Below, one piece after another: positions 3-13,462 of a stretch of DNA of 64,000 nucleotides. Below the pieces are notes generated by a model. That model was not told the origin of the DNA. It searched no databases and saw only the letters and a list, made by a program, of their open reading frames with translations. Made by a program: the position numbers and the translations under genes. The stretch comes from Lachnospiraceae bacterium oral taxon 500 (GTDB lineage: Bacteria; Bacillota; Clostridia; Lachnospirales; Vallitaleaceae). The DNA lies in assembly GCA_002999035.1 (NCBI GenBank), contig CP027241.1, positions 1,801,001 to 1,865,000 on the forward strand. Direction: 5' to 3'. Numbering within the stretch: position 1 is the stretch's first letter; each line of letters begins with the position of its first letter.

Positions 3-239
3 AAAGAAAGTAAAAAAGATTTTAGTAATGCTATTCTTCATGTATGGGGATATTTCAAAAAAGAGGCAAGCGAAATTGAAAAACAAGGATTATTTAATAT
101 ATTAGAAGAATATATGGCAGGGAAGAATAATCAGAAATCTGTGATTGAATATATCAATACCTTACTAAAGAAATATCCAAATAAATATTTACAAGAATCT
201 ACTTTATTAACAGGAGAACAAGATGAGACTCTGGCATGA
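3..239 (+). CDS. YbgA / DUF1722 domain protein, C-terminal part (5' end off window)
   Basis: The reading frame is open from the window edge to the TGA at 237-239, giving about 78 residues. It contains HVWGYFKKEASEIEK followed by a stretch ending in KYPNKYLQES, the pattern I know from the C-terminal half of YbgA/DUF1722 proteins. These often follow a DUF523 (TudS-like) domain, which would lie outside the window. The function of DUF1722 is not settled; the E. coli member sits next to photolyase. The next gene starts 17 bases before this one ends and encodes a pyrimidine-dimer glycosylase-like protein, so the two are probably one transcription unit with a nucleobase or DNA-damage theme. The frame is AT-rich compared with the rest of the window. 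Confidence 0.6.
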   Translation, partial: KESKKDFSNAILHVWGYFKKEASEIEKQGLFNILEEYMAGKNNQKSVIEYINTLLKKYPNKYLQESTLLTGEQDETLA

Positions 240-591
240 ACAAATGATTCATCTATTGCCTAAAAATCAGCTTCTTGGACAACATAGAGAATGCTGTGCG
301 CTTAGGGGAAATGGGTGGAATAAGAAACATAAAACAGTAGATTATGTATTTTTATATTCTCCATATCACTTATTTATGTATCATTCATTAGTTATGGATG
401 AAATGGAAAAAAGAGGATATAAGGTTTCTGAAGAATGGAGAGATAAGAATTATAGAGGAAAGAAAGCAGAAAATTACTATAATCTTGAAGAAAAAAAGAT
501 AGATAGCCCAATTTACAAAGAACATAATACGGAATATCTATTTGAGTGTATAGAAAACTTACGAAAAAAAGGGATACAATTGGAACTATAA
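223..591 (+). CDS. Pyrimidine dimer DNA glycosylase-like protein (TIGR02328/Pyr_excise type)
   Basis: A 122-residue protein beginning MRLWHEQMIHLLPKNQLLGQ and then HRECCALRGNGW, a very recognisable start for the small family related to T4 endonuclease V (Pyr_excise, TIGR02328). In T4 endonuclease V the N-terminal amine attacks the sugar of a pyrimidine dimer, and the R/E-rich N-terminus fits such an arrangement; activity in this bacterial branch is not proven. It overlaps the preceding DUF1722 gene by 17 bases and has an AGGAGAAC ribosome site at 210-217. The middle (VDYVFLYSPYHLFMYHSLVMDEMEKRGY) is typical of the family. Codon use is AT-rich like the upstream partial gene and unlike the crt genes that follow, so both may be a transferred pair. 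Confidence 0.7.
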   Translation: MRLWHEQMIHLLPKNQLLGQHRECCALRGNGWNKKHKTVDYVFLYSPYHLFMYHSLVMDEMEKRGYKVSEEWRDKNYRGKKAENYYNLEEKKIDSPIYKEHNTEYLFECIENLRKKGIQLEL

Positions 592-702
592 AAGTTTTGA
601 TTGATTTTACTACTACAACTCATTGTCCCACAAGGGAGGCACGAGCCAATGATTTTTGTAGTGATTTTTTGAGCTGACAAAAAACGCTATTGAAGGAGGA
701 TT

Positions 703-2211
703 ATGAAAAAAGTATTGGTTATAGGTGCTGGAATTGGTGGACTTTCTGCTGCAATTCGTCTCCAAAATGCCGGATATGAAGTAGAGATTTATGAGAAAAA
801 TGCTGTTCCCGGCGGAAAGATGCATCGATTGGAATTTGATGGTCATTCTTTTGATGTCGGGCCGACCTTGGTGATGATGCCGTCAGTTTATCGAGAAATT
901 TTTGAAATCGCGGGGCGCAATCCGGACGACTACATTCCTATGGTCAAATTGGCTCCGATGTATGATGTATATTTTAATTCGTCGACTTTAAGATCCTATT
1001 CTATTTCGAATGATTTGGAAGAACTGCATAAAACTTTTGAAAGCAAGGGCTTTGAAAATTCGATGGGATTGTATGATTATCTCAGCTCGATTTACAAGCG
1101 CTATCAGGTTGCGTTGGAGCATTTTATTACCAAGCCTTTTAGGCATAAACGTGATTTTTACAACCCGAAGGTTCTTTGGAATGCCTTGAAATTAAAAACT
1201 TTTGACAGTGCGGATCAAATGATGGCAAAGTTCATACCGGACAAAGACTTCCAACAGATGCTCAGCTTTCAAACTTTATATATTGGGGTTTCTCCGAAAA
1301 AAGGACCTTCTTTATACAATATCATTCCCATGATTGAGTTGCTTTACGGAGTTTGGTTTATAAAAGGCGGAATGTTTACGATGGCTGGTCAGATGGCGAA
1401 ACTGTTTGAAGAACTTGGCGGGGTGATTCATTACGAGATGCCTGTGGAAGAAATTATTACGAAAAATAATAAGGTGAGAGGTATTTCGGTTTTGGGCAAA
1501 GAAATTCCGGCAGATTTGGTGGTTTGTAATGCCGATTTTCCATACGCGATGAAAAATCTGATCCGGGATGATTCCGCCAAAGGAAAATATGATTCCGCCA
1601 AGATCGATTCTATGGATTATTCCTGTTCCTGCCTTGTCTTTTATTGGGGAGTGGAAGGAGTTTATCCGGATCTTGCTGCCCATACCTTTGTCGTCGCAGA
1701 TGATTTGGATTCAAATTTGAAAAGTATTTTTGACGGAAGTAAAATCAAAGAACCATCCGTATATCTTCATATTCCTTCCAATGTCGATTCAACAATGGCA
1801 CCTGAGGGTAAATCTTCTTTTTATCTTCTGATTCCGGTCTCGGATGTGGAGGCATCGCAGTACGAATGGGATGATGCGACAGTCGGTTATTATAGAGAGC
1901 ATGCCATTTCTGCATTGGAGAAGTTGCCTTCTTTGAAAAACTTGAGAGAGAAAATCTCTTCCGAGCGCTATTTTACGCCTCGCGATTTTATGAACTCTTT
2001 CAATGCCTATCGAGGTGCGACTTTTGGATTGCAGCCTACTTTAACTCAAAGCAATCATCTGAGACCACAGGCAAAATGTCTTTCCTGCGAAGGGTTATAT
2101 TTTGCCGGCAGCAGCATGCATCCGGGAGCCGGAGTGCCTATTGTGATGCAGAGCGGCAAAATATGCGCCGAGGAACTTCGCCTTGATGTGGAAGGAGCGA
2201 ATTTCTCATGA
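703..2211 (+). CDS. crtN: Phytoene/diapophytoene desaturase family FAD oxidoreductase
   Basis: A 502-residue protein with an N-terminal dinucleotide-binding fold, VIGAGIGGLSAAIRL, then E33-type FAD contact (VEIYEKN) and the GGKMHRLEFDG segment typical of CrtI/CrtN enzymes. The C-terminus has YFAGSSMHPGAGVPIVMQSG, the second FAD motif of the family. These enzymes insert double bonds into C30 or C40 polyenes at the membrane using FAD. The start is supported by AAGGAGGA at 693-700. The stop overlaps the ATG of the synthase gene by four bases, and the kinase-fusion gene follows, so this is the first gene of a three-gene isoprenoid operon. Sequence alone cannot tell C30 (crtN) from C40 (crtI) substrate; the symbol is a best guess. 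Confidence 0.85.
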   Translation: MKKVLVIGAGIGGLSAAIRLQNAGYEVEIYEKNAVPGGKMHRLEFDGHSFDVGPTLVMMPSVYREIFEIAGRNPDDYIPMVKLAPMYDVYFNSSTLRSYSISNDLEELHKTFESKGFENSMGLYDYLSSIYKRYQVALEHFITKPFRHKRDFYNPKVLWNALKLKTFDSADQMMAKFIPDKDFQQMLSFQTLYIGVSPKKGPSLYNIIPMIELLYGVWFIKGGMFTMAGQMAKLFEELGGVIHYEMPVEEIITKNNKVRGISVLGKEIPADLVVCNADFPYAMKNLIRDDSAKGKYDSAKIDSMDYSCSCLVFYWGVEGVYPDLAAHTFVVADDLDSNLKSIFDGSKIKEPSVYLHIPSNVDSTMAPEGKSSFYLLIPVSDVEASQYEWDDATVGYYREHAISALEKLPSLKNLREKISSERYFTPRDFMNSFNAYRGATFGLQPTLTQSNHLRPQAKCLSCEGLYFAGSSMHPGAGVPIVMQSGKICAEELRLDVEGANFS

Positions 2212-3224
2212 ACTTACAGCCATCATACCAAGTCGCCGAAGAGATTATGCAAAAAAACGCATCAAGTTTCCATGCGGCATTGGAGAAAATTGAGCGAACC
2301 AAGTTTTTAGATATAACGGCGGTCTATGCATTTTGTCGATATGCGGATGATTTGGCAGATATAGAATCGCAGAGCAAGGAGACGCGGCTTCAACTCTTAA
2401 ACCTTTTGGAAGAAGATGTGAAATCTTTGTATAACGGCAGTAGTCAGAGAGAAAATTATAAAAAATATGCCTGGTGGCCTGCTTTTGAAAATGCCGTTCG
2501 AATTCGGCAAATTCCACTTGAAGCATTGCTTGAGCAAATTGACGGACAAAAAAGCGATATTGATTTTAAAATCATAGAGGACAAAGATGATTTAATCCTA
2601 TACTGCAAAAAAGTAGCCGGTACGGTAGGGCTGATGTTAGCACCGATGCTGCGAGGTGAGAACGCGGATGAGCGCTATGGATCGATGTGTGAAGAATTGG
2701 GAATTGCGATGCAGATTACAAATATTCTCAGAGATATCGGAGAGGATTTGAGAAACAGAAACAGAATCTATATTCCGCAAACTTTTATGAAAAAATATAG
2801 CGTTACAAGAAAAGAATTGGAAAATCTTTCGGCTTTACCCACCGTTTGGCAAAGATGGCATTCATTTTTTTAACCGAATTTTAAGGTGGCGGATAAAGTG
2901 GTTCATCTATGGGAGGAGATGGCTCTGCTCGCGGAGTATTACTATGATAAATTTTATAAGCATTTATATATGTTCAGTTCGGATGCGCTCTTTCCGGTGA
3001 CGGCTGCGGCTGTATTTTATCAGACGATTTTGGAAGAAGTCAGAAAAAATAATTACAATTGTTTTACCAAAAGATGCTACACCAACGCCAAGTGCAAGAG
3101 TGATTTGCTGAAAATGGTGGCGAGCAGAGTTGAGCAAGTTAAGAGGAAGAACTTCAATTGTAACGAAGGACATGAGGAAAAAGGAAAGGTGAACGAACGA
3201 GTTCAGGATAAGGAGAATCTATGA
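2208..3224 (+). pseudogene. crtM: Phytoene/squalene synthase (CrtM/CrtB family) with an internal in-frame stop
   Basis: The first 221 codons hold a trans-prenyl synthase: FCRYADDLADIES is the first Asp-rich motif and QITNILRDIGEDLRNRNRIY the second, where two prenyl diphosphates are condensed with Mg2+. A TAA at 2871-2873 ends this frame. The same frame resumes at once and gives VVHLWEEMALLAEYYYDKFYKHL and a conserved-looking C-terminal helix region, ending at 3224 and overlapping the next ATG by four bases. The 2840-2885 stretch (WQRWHSFF, stop, PNFK) looks foreign and about 15 residues too long; it contains a T7 run, so a pair of compensating indels is as likely as a nonsense change. The last about 35 residues are Lys/Glu-rich and unlike the family. 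If the stop is real, the helical C-terminus is lost or made separately from GTG 2886. Confidence 0.75.
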
Positions 3225-4672
3225 ATATTTTGTTGATAGGACTATCTTTTATATATATTTTTGCTATAATTGGTTTTTCAACATTGTTTTTTAAGAAGAA
3301 TCAAGGCGAGCTGAGCCGTAAATTTATTCATATTATGCTGGGGAATTGGGTTTTTGCTTCCGCTTTTTTTACCGATGTCAAAGCGGCAATCTTCGTCCCG
3401 GCACTGTTTGTCATTATCAATGCATTGAGCCGAAAATACAATTTGATTTCTTCAATGGAAAGACAGGATGACAGTTGGGGAACGGTATATTATTCCATCA
3501 GTCTTTGCGTGACGATCGTGGTTCGCTTTGCTACCGGATGGGATATGTTTCCGATAATCGGAGTCCTGATCATGGCTTATGGTGATGGTTTGGCGGCACT
3601 GGTTGGAGCAAAATTCGGAAAGAAAAAGCCCTATTATTTTGCGCCGGATAAAACTTTGGCAGGCAGTGTGACAGTCTTTGTTGTAGCGACGGTGGTCACC
3701 GCCATCACTCTACTGACGGTCGGAGAGGCTGAACATATCTTGCGACTCGGCATAGGCATGATTATTTTAATCGCTGTATGCAACGGATTTTTGTCTGCAT
3801 TTATCGAAGCAGCGGGAATCAAAGGCGCGGATAATTTGACACTGCCAATCGGTTCGGCGCTCTTTGCCACCTTGTCATTTTACTATGGCGATATTTTCTT
3901 TTTCATCTACTTCATATTCTCAATTGGCGTTCTTTTGGTGAGTTTCAAGTTCCGATTGCTGACATCAGATGGTGCTGTGGCTGCTATTTTGACGGCGATA
4001 ACCCTTTATCTTCTGGGTGGCGTTTGGATTGCTTTGAGTCTGTATGCTTTTTATTTTCTGGGAAGCGGTGTCAGCAAGATTAAGAATGAACGAAAGCTGG
4101 AAGCAGATCGATTTCAAGAATCTGGTGGTGCCAGGACATGGCGGCAGGTGGTATCCAATTCTTTGCCGGCTTGTATATTGGTATTTTGTAAATATTTTTC
4201 GCCGAATAATATGGTGTTTTCTTTACTGAGTTTTGTGGTTTTTGCAGCAGCAACCGCGGATACTTTTTCGTCAGAGATTGGTGTACTCGGGAAAGGAAGG
4301 GTTTTTAGCATTATCACAGGAAAAAATGTTCAGCGAGGTGTTTCGGGTGGAATAAGTTGGCTGGGATTGTGGGCAGGATTGACAGGAGGATTTTTATCAG
4401 CTTGGCTTGCTTTTCCGCAGTTTGGATATCAGGGCATGGCATTCGTAACACTTATGGCTTTTGCAGGAACTTTGATTGACAGCGTTTTGGGAGCGTTGTT
4501 CCAACGAAAATATTTAACAGCGGAAGGTGTTTTTAGCGATAAAAAAATCTATGCGGGGCAAAATCCTGTTCAGGGTTTCTCATGGATGTCCAACAATGCC
4601 GTGAATCTATTCACTCTGTTTATTATCGTTATCGTAGGGCATTTCGTAAATTTGATTTGGAAAATTGCTTAA
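3221..4672 (+). CDS. Fusion of phytol/dolichol kinase-like domain and DUF92 (VTE6-like) domain, membrane protein
   Basis: A 483-residue polytopic protein in two parts. Residues about 1-215 resemble the CTP-dependent phytol/dolichol kinase and CDP-diglyceride synthase superfamily: YGDGLAALVGAKFGKK followed by KTLAGS, and an early RKFIHI helix. Residues about 235-483 are DUF92: TSDGAVAAILT, ATADTFSSEIGVLGKG, GVSGGISWLG and GTLIDSVLGA. In plants VTE5 phosphorylates phytol and VTE6 (a DUF92 protein) makes the diphosphate, so the fusion would turn a prenyl alcohol into a prenyl diphosphate in one polypeptide. The gene overlaps the prenyl synthase gene by four bases, which suggests it feeds that enzyme by salvage. 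Domain calls rest on motif memory; the substrate is inferred. Confidence 0.75.
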   Translation: MNILLIGLSFIYIFAIIGFSTLFFKKNQGELSRKFIHIMLGNWVFASAFFTDVKAAIFVPALFVIINALSRKYNLISSMERQDDSWGTVYYSISLCVTIVVRFATGWDMFPIIGVLIMAYGDGLAALVGAKFGKKKPYYFAPDKTLAGSVTVFVVATVVTAITLLTVGEAEHILRLGIGMIILIAVCNGFLSAFIEAAGIKGADNLTLPIGSALFATLSFYYGDIFFFIYFIFSIGVLLVSFKFRLLTSDGAVAAILTAITLYLLGGVWIALSLYAFYFLGSGVSKIKNERKLEADRFQESGGARTWRQVVSNSLPACILVFCKYFSPNNMVFSLLSFVVFAAATADTFSSEIGVLGKGRVFSIITGKNVQRGVSGGISWLGLWAGLTGGFLSAWLAFPQFGYQGMAFVTLMAFAGTLIDSVLGALFQRKYLTAEGVFSDKKIYAGQNPVQGFSWMSNNAVNLFTLFIIVIVGHFVNLIWKIA

Positions 4673-7724: not shown

Positions 7725-9473
7725 ATGAGAGAGTTGGTACGCAAACTTTATTTGGTGGCAGGTGAACAGTCCGGCCGGATTACGCAGATGCTGATATTTC
7801 ATACCCTGAAATCTTTTTTTGAAAGTTTTATGCTGGGCGGGATTTTGTTTTTGCTAATGAAGGCATGTGCAAACATATTTGAAAGCAGGCCGGTGGTTAT
7901 AAGCGATGTTTACACGCTTGCCTTGATCGCAGCGGCTGGAGTGACGGGAAAAATTATATTCGGATATTTGGCCGATAAAAACAAAAACATTGCTTCCTAC
8001 AGTTTTGGGGCAGAAAACCGGCTGATCGTCGGTGACCGGCTGAAAAAGGTCAATATGGGATATTTCAGTGATAACGGTCCGGGCGATATTTCCGGTCAGA
8101 TGTCGGCGGCGATCACTGAGCTGGAAACGGTTGGTATTTTTATTATCACGGCGTTAATTACCGGCACGATTCAAACCGTGATGATGGGGCTGTTTTTGCT
8201 CCCCTTTGACGCCGTTACCGGTATTTTGGTCTTAGCCACTATCTTTATAGGTGTTTTTATCAATACCCTGGTTCAGAAAAAAGCGGATCAGCTGACGACG
8301 GTGCTGCTGAAAATTAAAATTAAATTAAGTGCCAAAACACTGGAATATGTAAAAGGAATCAGCGTCTTAAAGGCCTTTGGCAAAAATAAAGAGGCAGCAG
8401 CGGAACTGCAGACCGCTATTGCCGAAACCAGAAAAGGCTTTCTGGATATTGAAAAAATAACAGCGCCCATTCAGCTTGTGTATTTATCGGTCTTTAAGCT
8501 GGGCATAGTCACTATTATTGGGATTTCGCTGCTGCGTTTTATAGCTGGCGGTATTTCTGCCGAAAAAGCCATTATGCTTATCGTTTCAAGTTTTGTGGTA
8601 TTTTCCGGTATTGAAATGGTGGGCGGAATGCAGAACTTAAAAGGAATTGCGGTACAGGATTTGGATACGGTGATAAAACTCCGGTCTCTGCCGGTGATAG
8701 AGGAAGGGAAGCAAACGGAGGTAAAAGAAGCAAAGGTAGAACTGAAAAATGTCAGCTTTTCTTACGGCCAGGGCGAACTGTTTCATAATCTTAATCTGAC
8801 GATACCGGCCGGCAAAACGACCGCCATTGTCGGATTTTCCGGCAGCGGTAAGACAACGCTCTGCCACTTGGCATCGCGATTTTGGGATGTAACCGGCGGC
8901 GAGGTGCTGGTTGACGGCAAAAATGTAAAAGACTTCAATTATGATGCTTTTCTGGCTAACTTTAGCTTTGTGTTTCAGGATGTGTATTTGTTTGATGATA
9001 CGGTGCGCAGCAATATTAAGTTCGGCAGTCCGGCCGCTTCTGATGAAGAAATGATGGAAGTGGCCAAAAAAGCCAGGTGCCATGATTTTATTATGAGTTT
9101 GCCGGCCGGCTATGACACGGTTTTGCAGGAGGGCGGTTCGAACCTTTCCGGCGGGGAGCGGCAGCGGATAGCCATTGCTCGGGCGATGTTAAAGCCCAGC
9201 AAAATCGTCATTTTAGATGAAGCTACCTCCAGCATTGACCCGGAAAATGAAAAACAGCTTTTGCAGGCGCTGGCAAATCTGTTAAAGGATAAGACGACCA
9301 TAGTAATTGCCCATAAGCTGAATACGATTAAAAATGCCGATCAAATCGTGGTGCTGGGGCGGGGCGGCATTGAAAGCAGCGGCACGCATGCCGAGCTGAT
9401 GGCGAAATCGCCGATTTATCAAAGGTTTGTGGCTTACCGGGAAAGCGCGGCCGGCTGGGAAGTCGGGGTGTAG
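7725..9473 (+). CDS. ABC exporter half-transporter, second of the pair
   Basis: About 582 residues from ATG 7725, preceded by GGAGGAGGG at 7709-7717. It has an N-terminal six-helix exporter domain and a C-terminal ATPase domain with GFSGSGKTT, LSGGERQR and IVILDEATSSID. Both halves of the pair keep the catalytic glutamate, so both ATP sites look competent. The nearly identical stretch CHDFIMSLPAGYDTV in this protein and CHDFIMSLPRGYDTV in the first shows that they arose by duplication. It is the last gene of the tetR operon; a terminator follows at 9608-9639. Confidence 0.88.
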   Translation: MRELVRKLYLVAGEQSGRITQMLIFHTLKSFFESFMLGGILFLLMKACANIFESRPVVISDVYTLALIAAAGVTGKIIFGYLADKNKNIASYSFGAENRLIVGDRLKKVNMGYFSDNGPGDISGQMSAAITELETVGIFIITALITGTIQTVMMGLFLLPFDAVTGILVLATIFIGVFINTLVQKKADQLTTVLLKIKIKLSAKTLEYVKGISVLKAFGKNKEAAAELQTAIAETRKGFLDIEKITAPIQLVYLSVFKLGIVTIIGISLLRFIAGGISAEKAIMLIVSSFVVFSGIEMVGGMQNLKGIAVQDLDTVIKLRSLPVIEEGKQTEVKEAKVELKNVSFSYGQGELFHNLNLTIPAGKTTAIVGFSGSGKTTLCHLASRFWDVTGGEVLVDGKNVKDFNYDAFLANFSFVFQDVYLFDDTVRSNIKFGSPAASDEEMMEVAKKARCHDFIMSLPAGYDTVLQEGGSNLSGGERQRIAIARAMLKPSKIVILDEATSSIDPENEKQLLQALANLLKDKTTIVIAHKLNTIKNADQIVVLGRGGIESSGTHAELMAKSPIYQRFVAYRESAAGWEVGV

Positions 9474-9785: not shown

Positions 9786-11333
9786 ATGCCCAGAAAACAA
9801 ATCGCAGCCATTGACGTCGGTTCGCATTCGATTCAAATGACCGTCGGCGAGATTAACCGCAAAGGCGAATATCGGGAATTGGATCATTTTTATAAAACGA
9901 CAACCTTGGGTCGGGATACTTTTAACGACGGCAAGATCAGCTTTGAGTCAGTCGATAAGCTGTGCGAGCTGCTGGAGGTTTTTGCTCAGGTGATTCGAGA
10001 CTATCAGGTCTCCTATTATAAGGCGGTGGCCACTTCCGCGCTCAGAGAGGCCGGCAACCGGGACTATATTATCGATCAGATTAAACAGAAGACCGGGATT
10101 GAGATTCAGGTAATCAGCAATTCGGAGGAGCAGTTTTATCATCACCGGGCGATTAAATCATGCATGAGCGGAATTGATAATATTTTAACAGAAAATACGC
10201 TGATGATTGCCGTGGGAGCGGGCAGTATTCAAATTACGGCGTATCATGACCAGACGCTTCATTCCACTCAAAACATCAAAATTGGAGCGCTTCGGCTGCG
10301 TGAGGTGTTCGGCACCTTGGAGAATGAGCTTCTGGATTATCAAATGGTGATTGAAGAATATATCAAGGCCAATCTGGATGCGATTGATATTTTTCAGGAA
10401 AATCTCTGCTATAAGAATTTGATTGTAGTCGGCGGAGAAATCGAGTTGCTGAACCGGATTCAGCAGTCCTTTTTTGGGCAGAGCAGCGATCGTTTTCCGG
10501 CCGAAGATTTTTACCGGCTGTATCAGTTTATTCTCCGGCAAAATGTGGAAGAACTGGGAAAAAATTATGAGATTTCTTATGAGAGAGCGGAAATTCTGCA
10601 TCCGATCGTTATGCTGTTGGGGAACCTGATTATGCAGATTGATGCCAAACAGATTATTTTGTCCAAGGCCGGTTTAAACGAAGGCATCATCAACGAAATG
10701 CATGAAGAAATTTATTCGCTGACCAGCAAAGCGGCTTATGCCGATGATATTTTGGAAAATGCCAGAGAAGTGGCGGGGCGCTTTTATTATCATGAAAAGC
10801 ATCAGAAAATATTGGAAAACTACGCCGCTTTTATCTTTAAAAAGACAAAGCGCCTGCACGGCATGAATGAAGAAGAGCTGCTGCTGCGGGCGGCCATCAT
10901 TTTGCAGGATGTGGGCAAAGCGATTGACCAAAGCAATCATTCGCTGCATTCTTATCATATTATCGGAGCGTTGGAGATTTTGGGCTTATCGGAGCGGGAA
11001 GTTAATATTATTGCACATGTGGCCGGCAATCATACCGACAGCCGACCGAAGCTGACGGACGCGGCCTACCGGGCTTTGCCGCAGCGGGATCGGATTTTGG
11101 TATCTAAGCTGACGGCGATTATCGGTTTGGCCAATGCTCTGGATAAATCGCATCAGGGCAAGTATGTGTTGCAGTCGATCAATATTAAGAATAAAGAATT
11201 GATGGTAATTGCCACGACCCGGTTTTTGACCAATACCACTTTAGAAGAATGGAGCTTTCGGTCCAAAGCCAAGTTTTTTAAAGAAGTCTTTGGTATTATG
11301 CCGATTTTAAAGATTAAAAAGGAGTATCAATGA
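9786..11333 (+). CDS. ppx: Ppx/GppA family exopolyphosphatase with HD-like C-terminal domain
   Basis: A 515-residue protein with an N-terminal ASKHA phosphatase fold: AAIDVGSHSIQMTVGEI is the phosphate-1 motif, followed by KAVATSALREAGN and AVGAGSIQITAY (phosphate-2). Residues about 310-500 form the HD-type helical domain often seen in Ppx (LQDVGKAIDQSNHSLHSYHI). It releases phosphate from the ends of polyphosphate or hydrolyses pppGpp. The stop overlaps the start of ppk by four bases (ATGA), so synthesis and breakdown enzymes are translationally coupled. The usual DxGSNS start motif reads DVGSHS here. AGGAGGAG upstream of ATG 9786 fixes the start. Confidence 0.88.
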   Translation: MPRKQIAAIDVGSHSIQMTVGEINRKGEYRELDHFYKTTTLGRDTFNDGKISFESVDKLCELLEVFAQVIRDYQVSYYKAVATSALREAGNRDYIIDQIKQKTGIEIQVISNSEEQFYHHRAIKSCMSGIDNILTENTLMIAVGAGSIQITAYHDQTLHSTQNIKIGALRLREVFGTLENELLDYQMVIEEYIKANLDAIDIFQENLCYKNLIVVGGEIELLNRIQQSFFGQSSDRFPAEDFYRLYQFILRQNVEELGKNYEISYERAEILHPIVMLLGNLIMQIDAKQIILSKAGLNEGIINEMHEEIYSLTSKAAYADDILENAREVAGRFYYHEKHQKILENYAAFIFKKTKRLHGMNEEELLLRAAIILQDVGKAIDQSNHSLHSYHIIGALEILGLSEREVNIIAHVAGNHTDSRPKLTDAAYRALPQRDRILVSKLTAIIGLANALDKSHQGKYVLQSINIKNKELMVIATTRFLTNTTLEEWSFRSKAKFFKEVFGIMPILKIKKEYQ

Positions 11334-13462
11334 TGATGCAAAAAGCAGGACAAGCCGTTGATTTATCAAATCCGCAGTATTATGAAAACAGGGAGCTGAG
11401 CTGGCTGGAGTTTAACCAAAGAGTATTGGAGGAAGCGGAAAATCCGGAAAATCCTTTATTTGAAAGATTAAAGTTCCTGTCGATTGTCAGTTCCAATTTG
11501 GACGAGTTTTTTATGGTTCGGGTTGCCTCGCTCAAAGAACAGGTTGACGCCGGTTATACGAAAGAAGATTTTGCCGGTTTTACGCCGAAAGGTCAGTTAA
11601 AAGCGATTTCGGTGCGGACGCATGTGATGGTGGAAGAACAGGTGCAGCATTTTAAAAGAGGAATTTTGCCGCAGCTGCGCAAAAAGAAGATTATTTTTCA
11701 TTCGGAGCTGCCAAAACTGACGGCCACGCAAAAAAGCTTTGTTGAGCAGTATTTTACCAATATGCTATATCCGATTTTAACACCGATGGGCGTTGATTCT
11801 TCGCGGCCTTTTCCGCTGATTATGAATAAAACCCTGAATATCGGGGTGATTGTTGAAAATAAGGGCAGGGAGGAGTTTGCCACCATTCAGGTGCCGTCGA
11901 TCATTGACCGGCTGATTAAGATTCCGGCGGCGGAGGATGGATATCATGAATTTGTGTACCTGGAAGATGTTATCACGGAATATATCGACCGCCTGTTTGT
12001 CGGCCGGCAGGTGCTGGCCTGCGGACAGTACCGGATTACGCGCAATTCTGACCTCTTGATTGATGAAGAAGAAGCCGAAGATTTATTGCTGGAGATTGAA
12101 AAGTCCATTCAGCAGCGAAAATGGGGGCAGGCGATCCGGCTGGAGCTGAAAAAAGATATTGACCAGCGGATTGTCGATCATTTGCAGAAATCCCTGGAAA
12201 TTCACCGCAAAGATGTTTATGCCATTGACGGGCCGCTGGACTTTACTTTTTTGATGAAGTTTTACGGCGACGAGTGCGGCGCTGATATGAAATATTCTGA
12301 GTTTACGCCGTGTCAGCCGTGGGCGCTGAAAGAGGATATTTTTGCGACCATAAGGGAGCGCGATTTGTTCTTGCACCATCCGTTTGAAAGTTTTCAGCCG
12401 GTGGTTGATTTTGTTAAGACGGCGGCAGAGGATCCGCGGGTGTTGGCGATTAAGCAGACGCTTTACCGGGTCAGCGGCAAATCGCCGATTATTCAGGCAC
12501 TGGCCAGAGCCGCTCAATCCGGCAAGCAGGTGACGGTGCTTGTCGAATTAAAAGCCAGATTTGATGAGGAGAATAATATTCAGTGGGCCAGAAGCTTGGA
12601 AAGAGCGGGCTGCCATGTTATTTACGGCTTGGTTGGTCTGAAAACGCATAGCAAAATTACGCTGGTCGTGCGCCAGGAGGAGGACGGGATCCGCCGTTAT
12701 GTTCACTTAGGCACCGGCAATTATAACGATGTGACGGCCCGGTTTTATACTGACATGGGCCTGTTGACTTGCAATGAATTGATTGGGGCGGATGCCTCGG
12801 CAGTCTTTAACACGCTGTCCGGTTATTCCGAACCGCCGAAGCTCCATAAGCTGACCATGGCGCCGACCGGGCTTAGGGAAAAGTTTTATCAGCTGATTCG
12901 CCGGGAAGCGGAGCATGCCCGGCAGGGGCGGCCGGCCAAAATGATTTGCAAGATGAACTCGTTGTGCGACCTCGGCATCATGAAGGAAATCTATCAGGCG
13001 GCGATGGCCGGTGTTCAGGTTGAGTTGATTGTCCGGGGAATTTGCGGCCTGATTCCGGGGATTCCGGGCGTCAGCGAAAATATCAGTGTCCGTTCCATTG
13101 TCGGCAAATATTTGGAGCACAGCCGGATTTATTATTTTTATAATGACGGCCGGGAGGAAGTTTATTTGTCGAGTGCGGATTTTATGCCGAGAAACTTAGA
13201 CCGCCGGGTGGAACTTCTCTTTCCGATTGAAGACGAAGAAATCAAGCAAGGCCTTTTTCGGATTTTAGAGATTGTTTTAAAGGATACCGTTAAAGCCAAG
13301 CTGAAAACCTTAGAAAAGCAATACCGCAATATTGACCGGCGCGGCAAGGAAGTTTTGAACTCACAGGCTAAGTTCGAAGAATTAGCCCGGGGAAAAAGCA
13401 GGCAGCTGGCGGAAAAGGAGCATGCCGATATTTTCATTCCGATTACGGCTCAAAGCGAATAA
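11330..13462 (+). CDS. ppk: Polyphosphate kinase 1
   Basis: A 710-residue protein of normal PPK1 length. It begins with YYENRELSWLEFNQRVLEEA, the N-domain signature, and has SNLDEFFMVRVASL. The two PLD-like catalytic domains show LKTHSKITLVVRQE (containing the His expected to be phosphorylated) and YVHLGTGNYND, then SSADFMPRNLDRRVELLFPI near the C-terminus. The enzyme makes polyphosphate from ATP at the membrane. It follows ppx with a four-base overlap. Confidence 0.93.
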   Translation: MMMQKAGQAVDLSNPQYYENRELSWLEFNQRVLEEAENPENPLFERLKFLSIVSSNLDEFFMVRVASLKEQVDAGYTKEDFAGFTPKGQLKAISVRTHVMVEEQVQHFKRGILPQLRKKKIIFHSELPKLTATQKSFVEQYFTNMLYPILTPMGVDSSRPFPLIMNKTLNIGVIVENKGREEFATIQVPSIIDRLIKIPAAEDGYHEFVYLEDVITEYIDRLFVGRQVLACGQYRITRNSDLLIDEEEAEDLLLEIEKSIQQRKWGQAIRLELKKDIDQRIVDHLQKSLEIHRKDVYAIDGPLDFTFLMKFYGDECGADMKYSEFTPCQPWALKEDIFATIRERDLFLHHPFESFQPVVDFVKTAAEDPRVLAIKQTLYRVSGKSPIIQALARAAQSGKQVTVLVELKARFDEENNIQWARSLERAGCHVIYGLVGLKTHSKITLVVRQEEDGIRRYVHLGTGNYNDVTARFYTDMGLLTCNELIGADASAVFNTLSGYSEPPKLHKLTMAPTGLREKFYQLIRREAEHARQGRPAKMICKMNSLCDLGIMKEIYQAAMAGVQVELIVRGICGLIPGIPGVSENISVRSIVGKYLEHSRIYYFYNDGREEVYLSSADFMPRNLDRRVELLFPIEDEEIKQGLFRILEIVLKDTVKAKLKTLEKQYRNIDRRGKEVLNSQAKFEELARGKSRQLAEKEHADIFIPITAQSE

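Follow-up and report, generated by a model that had tools for sequence, protein, structure and literature searches.

The fusion gene and its two domains

The window analysed here is a 64,000-nucleotide stretch of the Lachnospiraceae bacterium oral taxon 500 genome (contig CP027241.1, positions 1,801,001 to 1,865,000), and its left part holds a gene that fuses two kinase-like domains and follows two genes of the carotenoid (crt) type. The open reading frame (ORF) is intact from 3221 to 4672 and carries both halves in one 483-aa frame with the motifs that a first-pass annotation of this DNA had quoted (Table 1). Its product is probably a single membrane protein by which scavenged isoprenoid alcohols, farnesol for example, receive two phosphates. 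Nine fusion genes of this kind were surveyed, with genomes labelled G (G000 being the own genome) and genomic loci labelled L. Against two Lachnoanaerobaculum genomes, the ratio of nonsynonymous to synonymous substitution rates (dN/dS) is 0.13–0.14 for both halves, while against locus L023 it is 0.20 for the N half and 0.07 for the C half; judged by these ratios, the gene is under purifying selection. Searches of plasmids and phages with the fusion protein gave zero matches at an E-value of 1e-5.

The C half is a DUF92 (COG1836) domain, as first annotated. The Pfam family PF01940 matches aa 234–468 with 189.2 bits, far over its cut-off of 27.5, and gives 192.2 bits when the half is scanned alone; all 11 rows of the DUF92 alignment match the family at E<=1. 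The hypothetical equivalog TIGR00297 reaches 128 bits, under its cut-off of 205.85. Comparison of the DUF92 profile with the CdsA profile built in this study gave an hhalign probability of only 1.3%; starting from an archaeal query, Makarova et al. 2015 (PMC5898192) report an HHpred value of 97.57% for COG1836 against PF01148.

The N half had been annotated as a phytol/dolichol-kinase-like domain, and this assignment comes from remote profile comparison. When cut at aa 1–225 the half matches CTP_transf_1 (PF01148) with an E-value of 0.0014 and 18.9 bits, which does not reach the Pfam cut-off of 24, and when cut at aa 1–230 the family is unmatched at E-values up to 10. Among the 28 N halves collected, five give a PF01148 match at E<=1, the best being 1.9e-4. 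A profile of these 28 sequences aligned by hhalign to a profile of 30 CdsA ORFs with a probability of 83.8% (E 7.9e-6), whereas the controls RseP, UppS, PyrH, farnesyl diphosphate (FPP) synthase and a transporter all scored 1.3% or less. The CdsA label of the profile ORFs was read from gene order, and the two ORFs that were scanned confirmed it with 199 and 201 bits to PF01148. Against two 450-aa relatives, the 28-sequence profile reached 99.0%. These comparisons place the N half in the phytol/dolichol-kinase/CdsA superfamily. Residues R33, K34, H37, G87, T88, D122, G148, E196, D204, N205 and P209 are invariant in the 28 sequences and K144 is nearly so; the RKxxHI and DG motifs presumably correspond to those of phytol and farnesol kinases. 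NCBIfam gave solely single-member matches to unrelated families for the 28 N halves (best E 0.012), and matches of 12 of the 28 to PF03908 (Sec20) at E 0.056 or worse were taken as chance.

Structural models of both halves show weak matches to membrane enzymes of the CdsA type. AlphaFold2 gave a predicted local distance difference test (pLDDT) of 88.8 for the N half modelled alone and 83.9 for the whole protein, with a predicted template modelling score of 0.83. With the N-half model, Foldseek ranked CdsA first (probability 0.92, though at E 0.12) and second (probability 0.69, E 0.25), and VIA placed CdsA first and third (Z 7.3 and 7.0) with an unrelated designed protein between them (Z 7.1). 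With the full model, VIA matched CarS to the C half (Z 8.0) and CdsA to both halves (Z 7.5 for N, 6.4 for C), an unrelated row scoring Z 7.0, and Foldseek returned nothing at E<=0.001, ranking a complex I subunit first and CdsA second. Sequence searches of solved structures with the profile of each half gave a best E-value of 0.31. Taken alone, such fold matches would be little proof. Descent of the halves from one ancestor by internal duplication was also considered: the half-versus-half hhalign scores (17% and 8%, E 0.0015 and 0.0043) exceed those of unrelated controls and the motifs are in register, but the comparison is not decisive.

Table 1. Position, strand and basis of assignment of features in the window
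Feature	Position	Strand	Basis or remark
Fusion ORF, 483 aa, proposed prenol kinase and prenyl-phosphate kinase	3221..4672	+	predicted polytopic membrane protein
N domain, aa 1–225, phytol/dolichol-kinase/CdsA-like	3221..3895	+	profile comparison, fold model, conserved residues
D122 codon in YGDG, first candidate catalytic Asp of N domain	3584..3586	+	invariant in 28 N halves; putative role after PMC5898192
D204 codon in KGADN, second candidate catalytic Asp of N domain	3830..3832	+	invariant in 28 N halves; putative role
C domain, aa 229–483, DUF92/COG1836	3905..4669	+	Pfam; invariant D347 and D420 in 11 sequences
D347 codon in ADTFSSE, first candidate catalytic Asp of C domain	4259..4261	+	invariant in 11 C halves; putative role
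D420 codon in DSVLG, second candidate catalytic Asp of C domain	4478..4480	+	invariant in 11 C halves; putative role
Shared crtI-crtM-fusion cassette	590..4672	+	81–82% DNA identity over ~4.1 kb, two Lachnoanaerobaculum genomes
crtI-family (phytoene/diapophytoene desaturase-like) flavin adenine dinucleotide enzyme	703..2211	+	TIGR02734, 432.6 bits, cut-off 238.1
crtM/crtB-like SQS_PSY synthase frame with in-frame TAA at 2871–2873	2208..3224	+	Pfam; sole SQS_PSY match of the genome
Pyrimidine-dimer glycosylase-like gene (PF03013)	223..591	+	preceded by a DUF1722 gene whose end lies inside the window

The crt cassette and the spread of the fusion

The crtI-like and SQS_PSY genes directly precede the fusion, as had been annotated, but the SQS_PSY frame contains an in-frame stop that was not mentioned at the time. 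Intact crtM genes are found at L024, L025 and L027, so the stop probably breaks the carotenoid-type branch in this genome unless it is a sequencing error. The dN/dS of crtI is 0.066 against L024 of Lachnoanaerobaculum, and that of crtM after versus before the stop is 0.21/0.14, 0.19/0.17 and 0.11/0.10, slightly higher after it by a difference too small to tell. The ATG of the fusion overlaps the TGA of the SQS_PSY frame here, which had been read as translational coupling; the relatives with an intact crtM have gaps of 14, 31 and 79 bases (L027, L024 and L025, ORF starts as called), and coupling does not hold as a general feature. The same three loci, out of nine with a fusion, are those where both crtI and crtM are intact beside it.

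The DUF1722 and PF03013 gene pair accompanies the cassette in both places, lying upstream of it in the window and downstream in Lachnoanaerobaculum, as in a circular permutation (window 590–4672 and L020:4812-5590 against L024:5372-10347 and L027:5371-10237). The DUF1722-type ORF of the pair has 130–150 aa. This swapped order, together with the DNA identity of the cassette, suggests that the crtI-crtM-fusion unit moved horizontally among mouth bacteria; the mouth is the habitat we assume for Lachnoanaerobaculum and COT-073. An ORF of L027 at 11199–12524 is transposase-like by eye. Upstream of the window start, L020:2712-3325 is repetitive, and two overlapping frames of its minus strand read as peptide repeats that are almost identical.

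Six of the nine fusion genes adjoin crt genes or their remnants (the window, L024, L025, L027, G002 and L023). At the G002 locus crtI is internally shortened, crtM is cut and the N half of the kinase is lost, while L023 has only crt fragments at a contig end. The crt damage thus seen in three genomes comprises the stop at 2871–2873 of the window, the G002 deletions (L013:6172-8187) and the L023 fragments (1–620), and despite it the fusion frame is wholly open in two of the three. The other three fusions, namely a paralog in the own genome and those of COT-073 and Facklamia hominis, have no crt genes in the surrounding stretch examined. The link to crt genes is real, recurring in other species, but it is not general, and the first-pass idea that these genes are the main destination of the product is not borne out: a third of the fusions lack them, they are broken here and damaged or fragmentary in two others, and undecaprenyl diphosphate synthase (UppS) turned up in every genome searched for it, 41 of 41 (9 and 32, the own genome included).

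Related arrangements occur elsewhere. G032, which also has a PF00348 synthase and IspG, carries a split version in which the N half is followed by a DUF92 gene and then by one of its three UppS-family matches. At L015:6269-10711, a Cys-rich ORF (8403–9368) and two further ORFs precede an N half, a DUF92 gene and an extra UppS, and the whole may be a cluster that makes polyprenyl for its own use; a radical S-adenosylmethionine assignment for the Cys-rich ORF was dropped, as Pfam gives no family. Two loci (L016:6781-9308 and L017:862-6556) encode a protein of 440–450 aa that is related to the N half but differs in its C part; it follows a DUF3419-type gene that was called by PF11899 in L017 and by eye in L016. 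At L017, a UbiA gene and a phosphoenolpyruvate-synthase-like ORF adjoin this relative. For the 450-aa kinase-like proteins of G037 and G046, hhalign of the C part against DUF92 gave 4.3%.

Isoprenoid genes of the host genome and its relatives

FPP synthase is normally considered indispensable for making the undecaprenyl carrier. The own genome is a single contig with 99.98% completeness, and it has no match to the FPP/geranylgeranyl diphosphate (GGPP) synthase family PF00348, while 14 of 14 controls were matched. In a survey of 59 genomes (the own genome and 58 relatives) the family is present in 57 and absent only from the own genome and its congener G001, both fusion carriers; G002, the third genome of the genus searched, has it. 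On this reading of the genome, the usual FPP-making enzyme seems to have been lost, and the making of pigment and cell-wall lipids may depend on scavenged material.

The two genomes without PF00348 also have in common a second, stand-alone fusion type that is 35–37% identical to the fusion of the window. It lies beside a glycosyltransferase in equal gene order in both genomes; in the own genome it occupies contig positions 2061683–2063128, and in G001 it is a 478-codon frame whose end accounts for an apparent stop in the match. This gene was not seen in G002, which has the synthase and is 89% complete.

With respect to the supply of C5 units, IspG (PF04551) is unmatched in all three genomes of the genus and matched in six of six other genomes tested. 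HMG-CoA (hydroxymethylglutaryl-CoA) reductase is unmatched in all nine, the six with IspG among them. Mevalonate diphosphate decarboxylase (MDD) is over the cut-off in all three genomes of the genus, and its neighbours on either side in the own genome are GHMP-kinase genes, interpreted as mevalonate kinase and phosphomevalonate kinase. Joint loss of isopentenyl diphosphate isomerase (IDI) and FPP synthase was predicted for G000 and G001; this prediction failed, as type 2 IDI is present in both, and dimethylallyl diphosphate (DMAPP) can therefore be made. Given the retained MDD and IDI and the unmatched IspG and HMG-CoA reductase, isopentenyl diphosphate (IPP) and DMAPP could be built from mevalonate, which would itself have to be taken up or made by a route that escaped detection. 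A dxr slot found empty next to rseP was tried as a sign that the methylerythritol phosphate (MEP) pathway is lost and was discarded, because L123 and L124 show the same slot yet have ispG; the MEP claim for the genus consequently rests on PF04551.

Scanning genome contigs for the N half gave 33 loci, at 27 of which it stands alone as a protein of 214–223 aa. By record title these 27 (G065–G091; L029–L055, L096–L122) are Clostridia metagenome-assembled genomes (MAGs), three from sheep or goat gut and one titled Gastranaerophilales. PF00348 is unmatched in 22 of them and UppS is found in all 27, so incompleteness is unlikely to be the cause of the missing synthase for most; the idea of the lone N half as a polyprenol kinase replacing UppS was discarded, since UppS is kept throughout. 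Where the synthase is present, it lies directly before uppS in four of five genomes, and in 21 of the 22 negatives frr and uppS adjoin, the contig ending there in one. The fifth positive genome, G068, may be a mixed bin and has a differing uppS neighbourhood. A quick UppS-CdsA tree of 34 genomes, flagged for long branches, implies at least six switches between presence and absence of the synthase, and four sister pairs of MAGs differ in this respect. No MDD match exceeds the cut-off in any of the 27 genomes, and no DUF92, crt or UppS ORFs occur in the 388 kb surrounding the lone N halves. A Cytidylate_kin-type P-loop gene directly precedes the lone N half in six of the 27 (L036, L045, L048 and L050–L052, four of which were scanned), and it could supply the nucleotide or be the partner kinase.

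Proposed function, alternatives and known systems

The reading we favour, with somewhat better than even confidence, is that the fusion is a one-polypeptide prenol-to-prenyl-diphosphate kinase, from which FPP made by scavenging would pass to UppS and, within the cassette, to carotenoid enzymes. A prenol would enter the membrane, where the COG0170-like N domain would phosphorylate it; farnesol is the most likely substrate, geranylgeraniol a possible one, and cytidine triphosphate (CTP) the probable donor. The COG1836/VTE6-like C domain would then add the second phosphate to give the prenyl diphosphate. The N-domain step is proposed by kinship with VTE5, FOLK and Sec59 and the C-domain step by the published VTE6 assignment of COG1836. 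In the mobile crtI-crtM-fusion cassette, the FPP would feed a carotenoid-type pathway via CrtM-type enzymes, whereas in the own genome and its congener the stand-alone second fusion would offset the missing FPP synthase and prime UppS, with IPP from the lower mevalonate pathway. The salvage idea of the first-pass annotation is favoured by the genome context, in which PF00348, IspG and HMG-CoA reductase are unmatched and UppS is kept; we infer catalysis, substrate, nucleotide, direction of flux and the farnesol source. A wider proposal is held tentatively, at somewhat less than an even chance: some mouth Clostridia and the uncultured Clostridia with lone N halves would have dropped FPP synthase and would build the undecaprenyl carrier from prenols of neighbours or host by means of a one-polypeptide or split prenol-to-prenyl-diphosphate kinase, the mobile cassette extending salvage to carotenoids. 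The source of prenol in the mouth is perhaps Candida farnesol.

Several observations weigh against this scheme. The N half remains under the Pfam cut-off, and VIA Z-scores of 6–8 can reflect a common helical arrangement, as unrelated chains reach 7.0–7.1. The predicted absence of IDI failed. G000 and G001 are sister genomes, and a single loss probably accounts for the missing synthase in both. The crt cassette also occurs in hosts with ispG (L123, L124, L125) or with the synthase family (G059, G060, G061, G063), where the kinase is thus not obligatory for crt, and the synthase accompanies the split halves of G032 and the fusion of Facklamia (G064). Five of the 27 genomes with a lone N half have the synthase as well, and the 388 kb searched around the lone N halves of this group contain no DUF92 ORF as a second kinase. 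The 27 MAGs were selected for having the N half, and for the most part they belong to a single clade.

Among the alternatives, the one that survives best, though we regard it as unlikely, is that UppS starts from DMAPP or geranyl diphosphate, that FPP is not needed and that the fusion serves another lipid, for example in polyprenyl-phosphate recycling. The type 2 IDI kept in G000 and G001 makes DMAPP available to their retained UppS, but DMAPP is also required by MiaA for tRNA modification, which counts against this alternative. Moreover, no UppS alignment column separates 24 synthase-less from 13 synthase-bearing genomes at 85%; the sequences are diverse and the test is weak, so the result argues only mildly against a changed primer. 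Quite unlikely, in our estimate, is a pair resembling cytidine diphosphate (CDP)-lipid synthases or dolichol/undecaprenol kinases that acts on long polyprenols rather than on C15 or C20 alcohols. It would fit the resemblance to CdsA and CarS in fold and profile, and the superfamily includes dolichol kinases (PMC5898192), but G000 already has a typical cdsA (PF01148, 198.9 bits) and the lone N half is no UppS substitute in any of its 27 genomes.

CrtM/CrtB-type enzymes and UppS use FPP or GGPP, which counts against a substrate such as phytol or a different prenol from the diet or from chlorophyll. Although the closest characterised enzymes, VTE5 and VTE6, are phytol and phytyl-phosphate kinases (PMC9782597), tocopherol- or phylloquinone-type genes were unnoticed next to the fusions, where most neighbours were read by eye, and we regard such a substrate as improbable.

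The prenol-to-prenyl-diphosphate kinase thus remains the preferred reading, and the first-pass annotation is confirmed in part as an observation and supported in part as an interpretation. A genome with UppS, without a match to the FPP-synthase family and with two kinase-fusion genes makes bacterial farnesol salvage directly testable. If the proposal is true, prenol salvage would make members of microbial communities dependent on their neighbours. The survey also adds putative bacterial prenol kinases, including a candidate for a natural one-polypeptide version.

Carotenoid operons of the C30 and C40 types contain crtM-crtN and crtB-crtI, respectively. The cassette described here likewise has adjoining synthase and desaturase genes, but it adds a predicted prenol kinase. 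To our knowledge, a prenol kinase inside a crt cassette has not been described. Titles and abstracts on Lachnoanaerobaculum and carotenoids gave no sign of a kinase-bearing cassette, and a literature search that mostly did not extend to subscription papers turned up neither a crt-linked fusion nor bacteria that have UppS and such a kinase but lack the FPP-synthase family.

CDP-lipid synthases of the PF01148 superfamily (CdsA and CarS) are comparable to the fusion in the remote profile similarity of the N half, the weak fold matches of both halves and the Asp pairs; CdsA, however, makes CDP-lipid, and the sequence similarity is remote and under the Pfam cut-off. Closer in chemistry are the plant and cyanobacterial VTE5, the plant VTE6 and FOLK, which would have in common with the fusion two successive phosphorylations of a prenol, its C half belonging to the VTE6 family (COG1836). 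PMC9782597 covers the biochemistry of these enzymes, with their preference for CTP; they are independent proteins with proven phytol or farnesol substrates, whereas the fusion is one polypeptide with a proposed substrate. COG1836 is tabulated under phytol-phosphate metabolism in PMC3223725, and a prenol kinase of the malaria parasite is described in PMC10849223 (2024).

The closest architecture is archaeal. In PMC5898192, an N-terminal Sec59-like domain is fused to COG1836 in Methanosarcina barkeri (Mbar_A3310), COG1836 is tied to isoprenoid metabolism, and a COG1836-uppS gene context is reported in archaea, so the combination is not undescribed as first thought; the accessible part of PMC5694494 added nothing on this architecture. 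Likened by description, Mbar_A3310 and the present fusion both have an N-terminal dolichol-kinase-like domain and DUF92/COG1836, a family whose genes are linked to uppS. They differ in that the archaeal account, as available, leaves crt unmentioned, while the present fusions are of Bacillota type, some are crt-linked and two of their genomes have no FPP-synthase match. The fusion architecture and the COG1836-uppS link were thus known, and what appears to be new here is the crt-linked bacterial fusion and the presence of the putative kinase in a genome without a recognisable FPP synthase.

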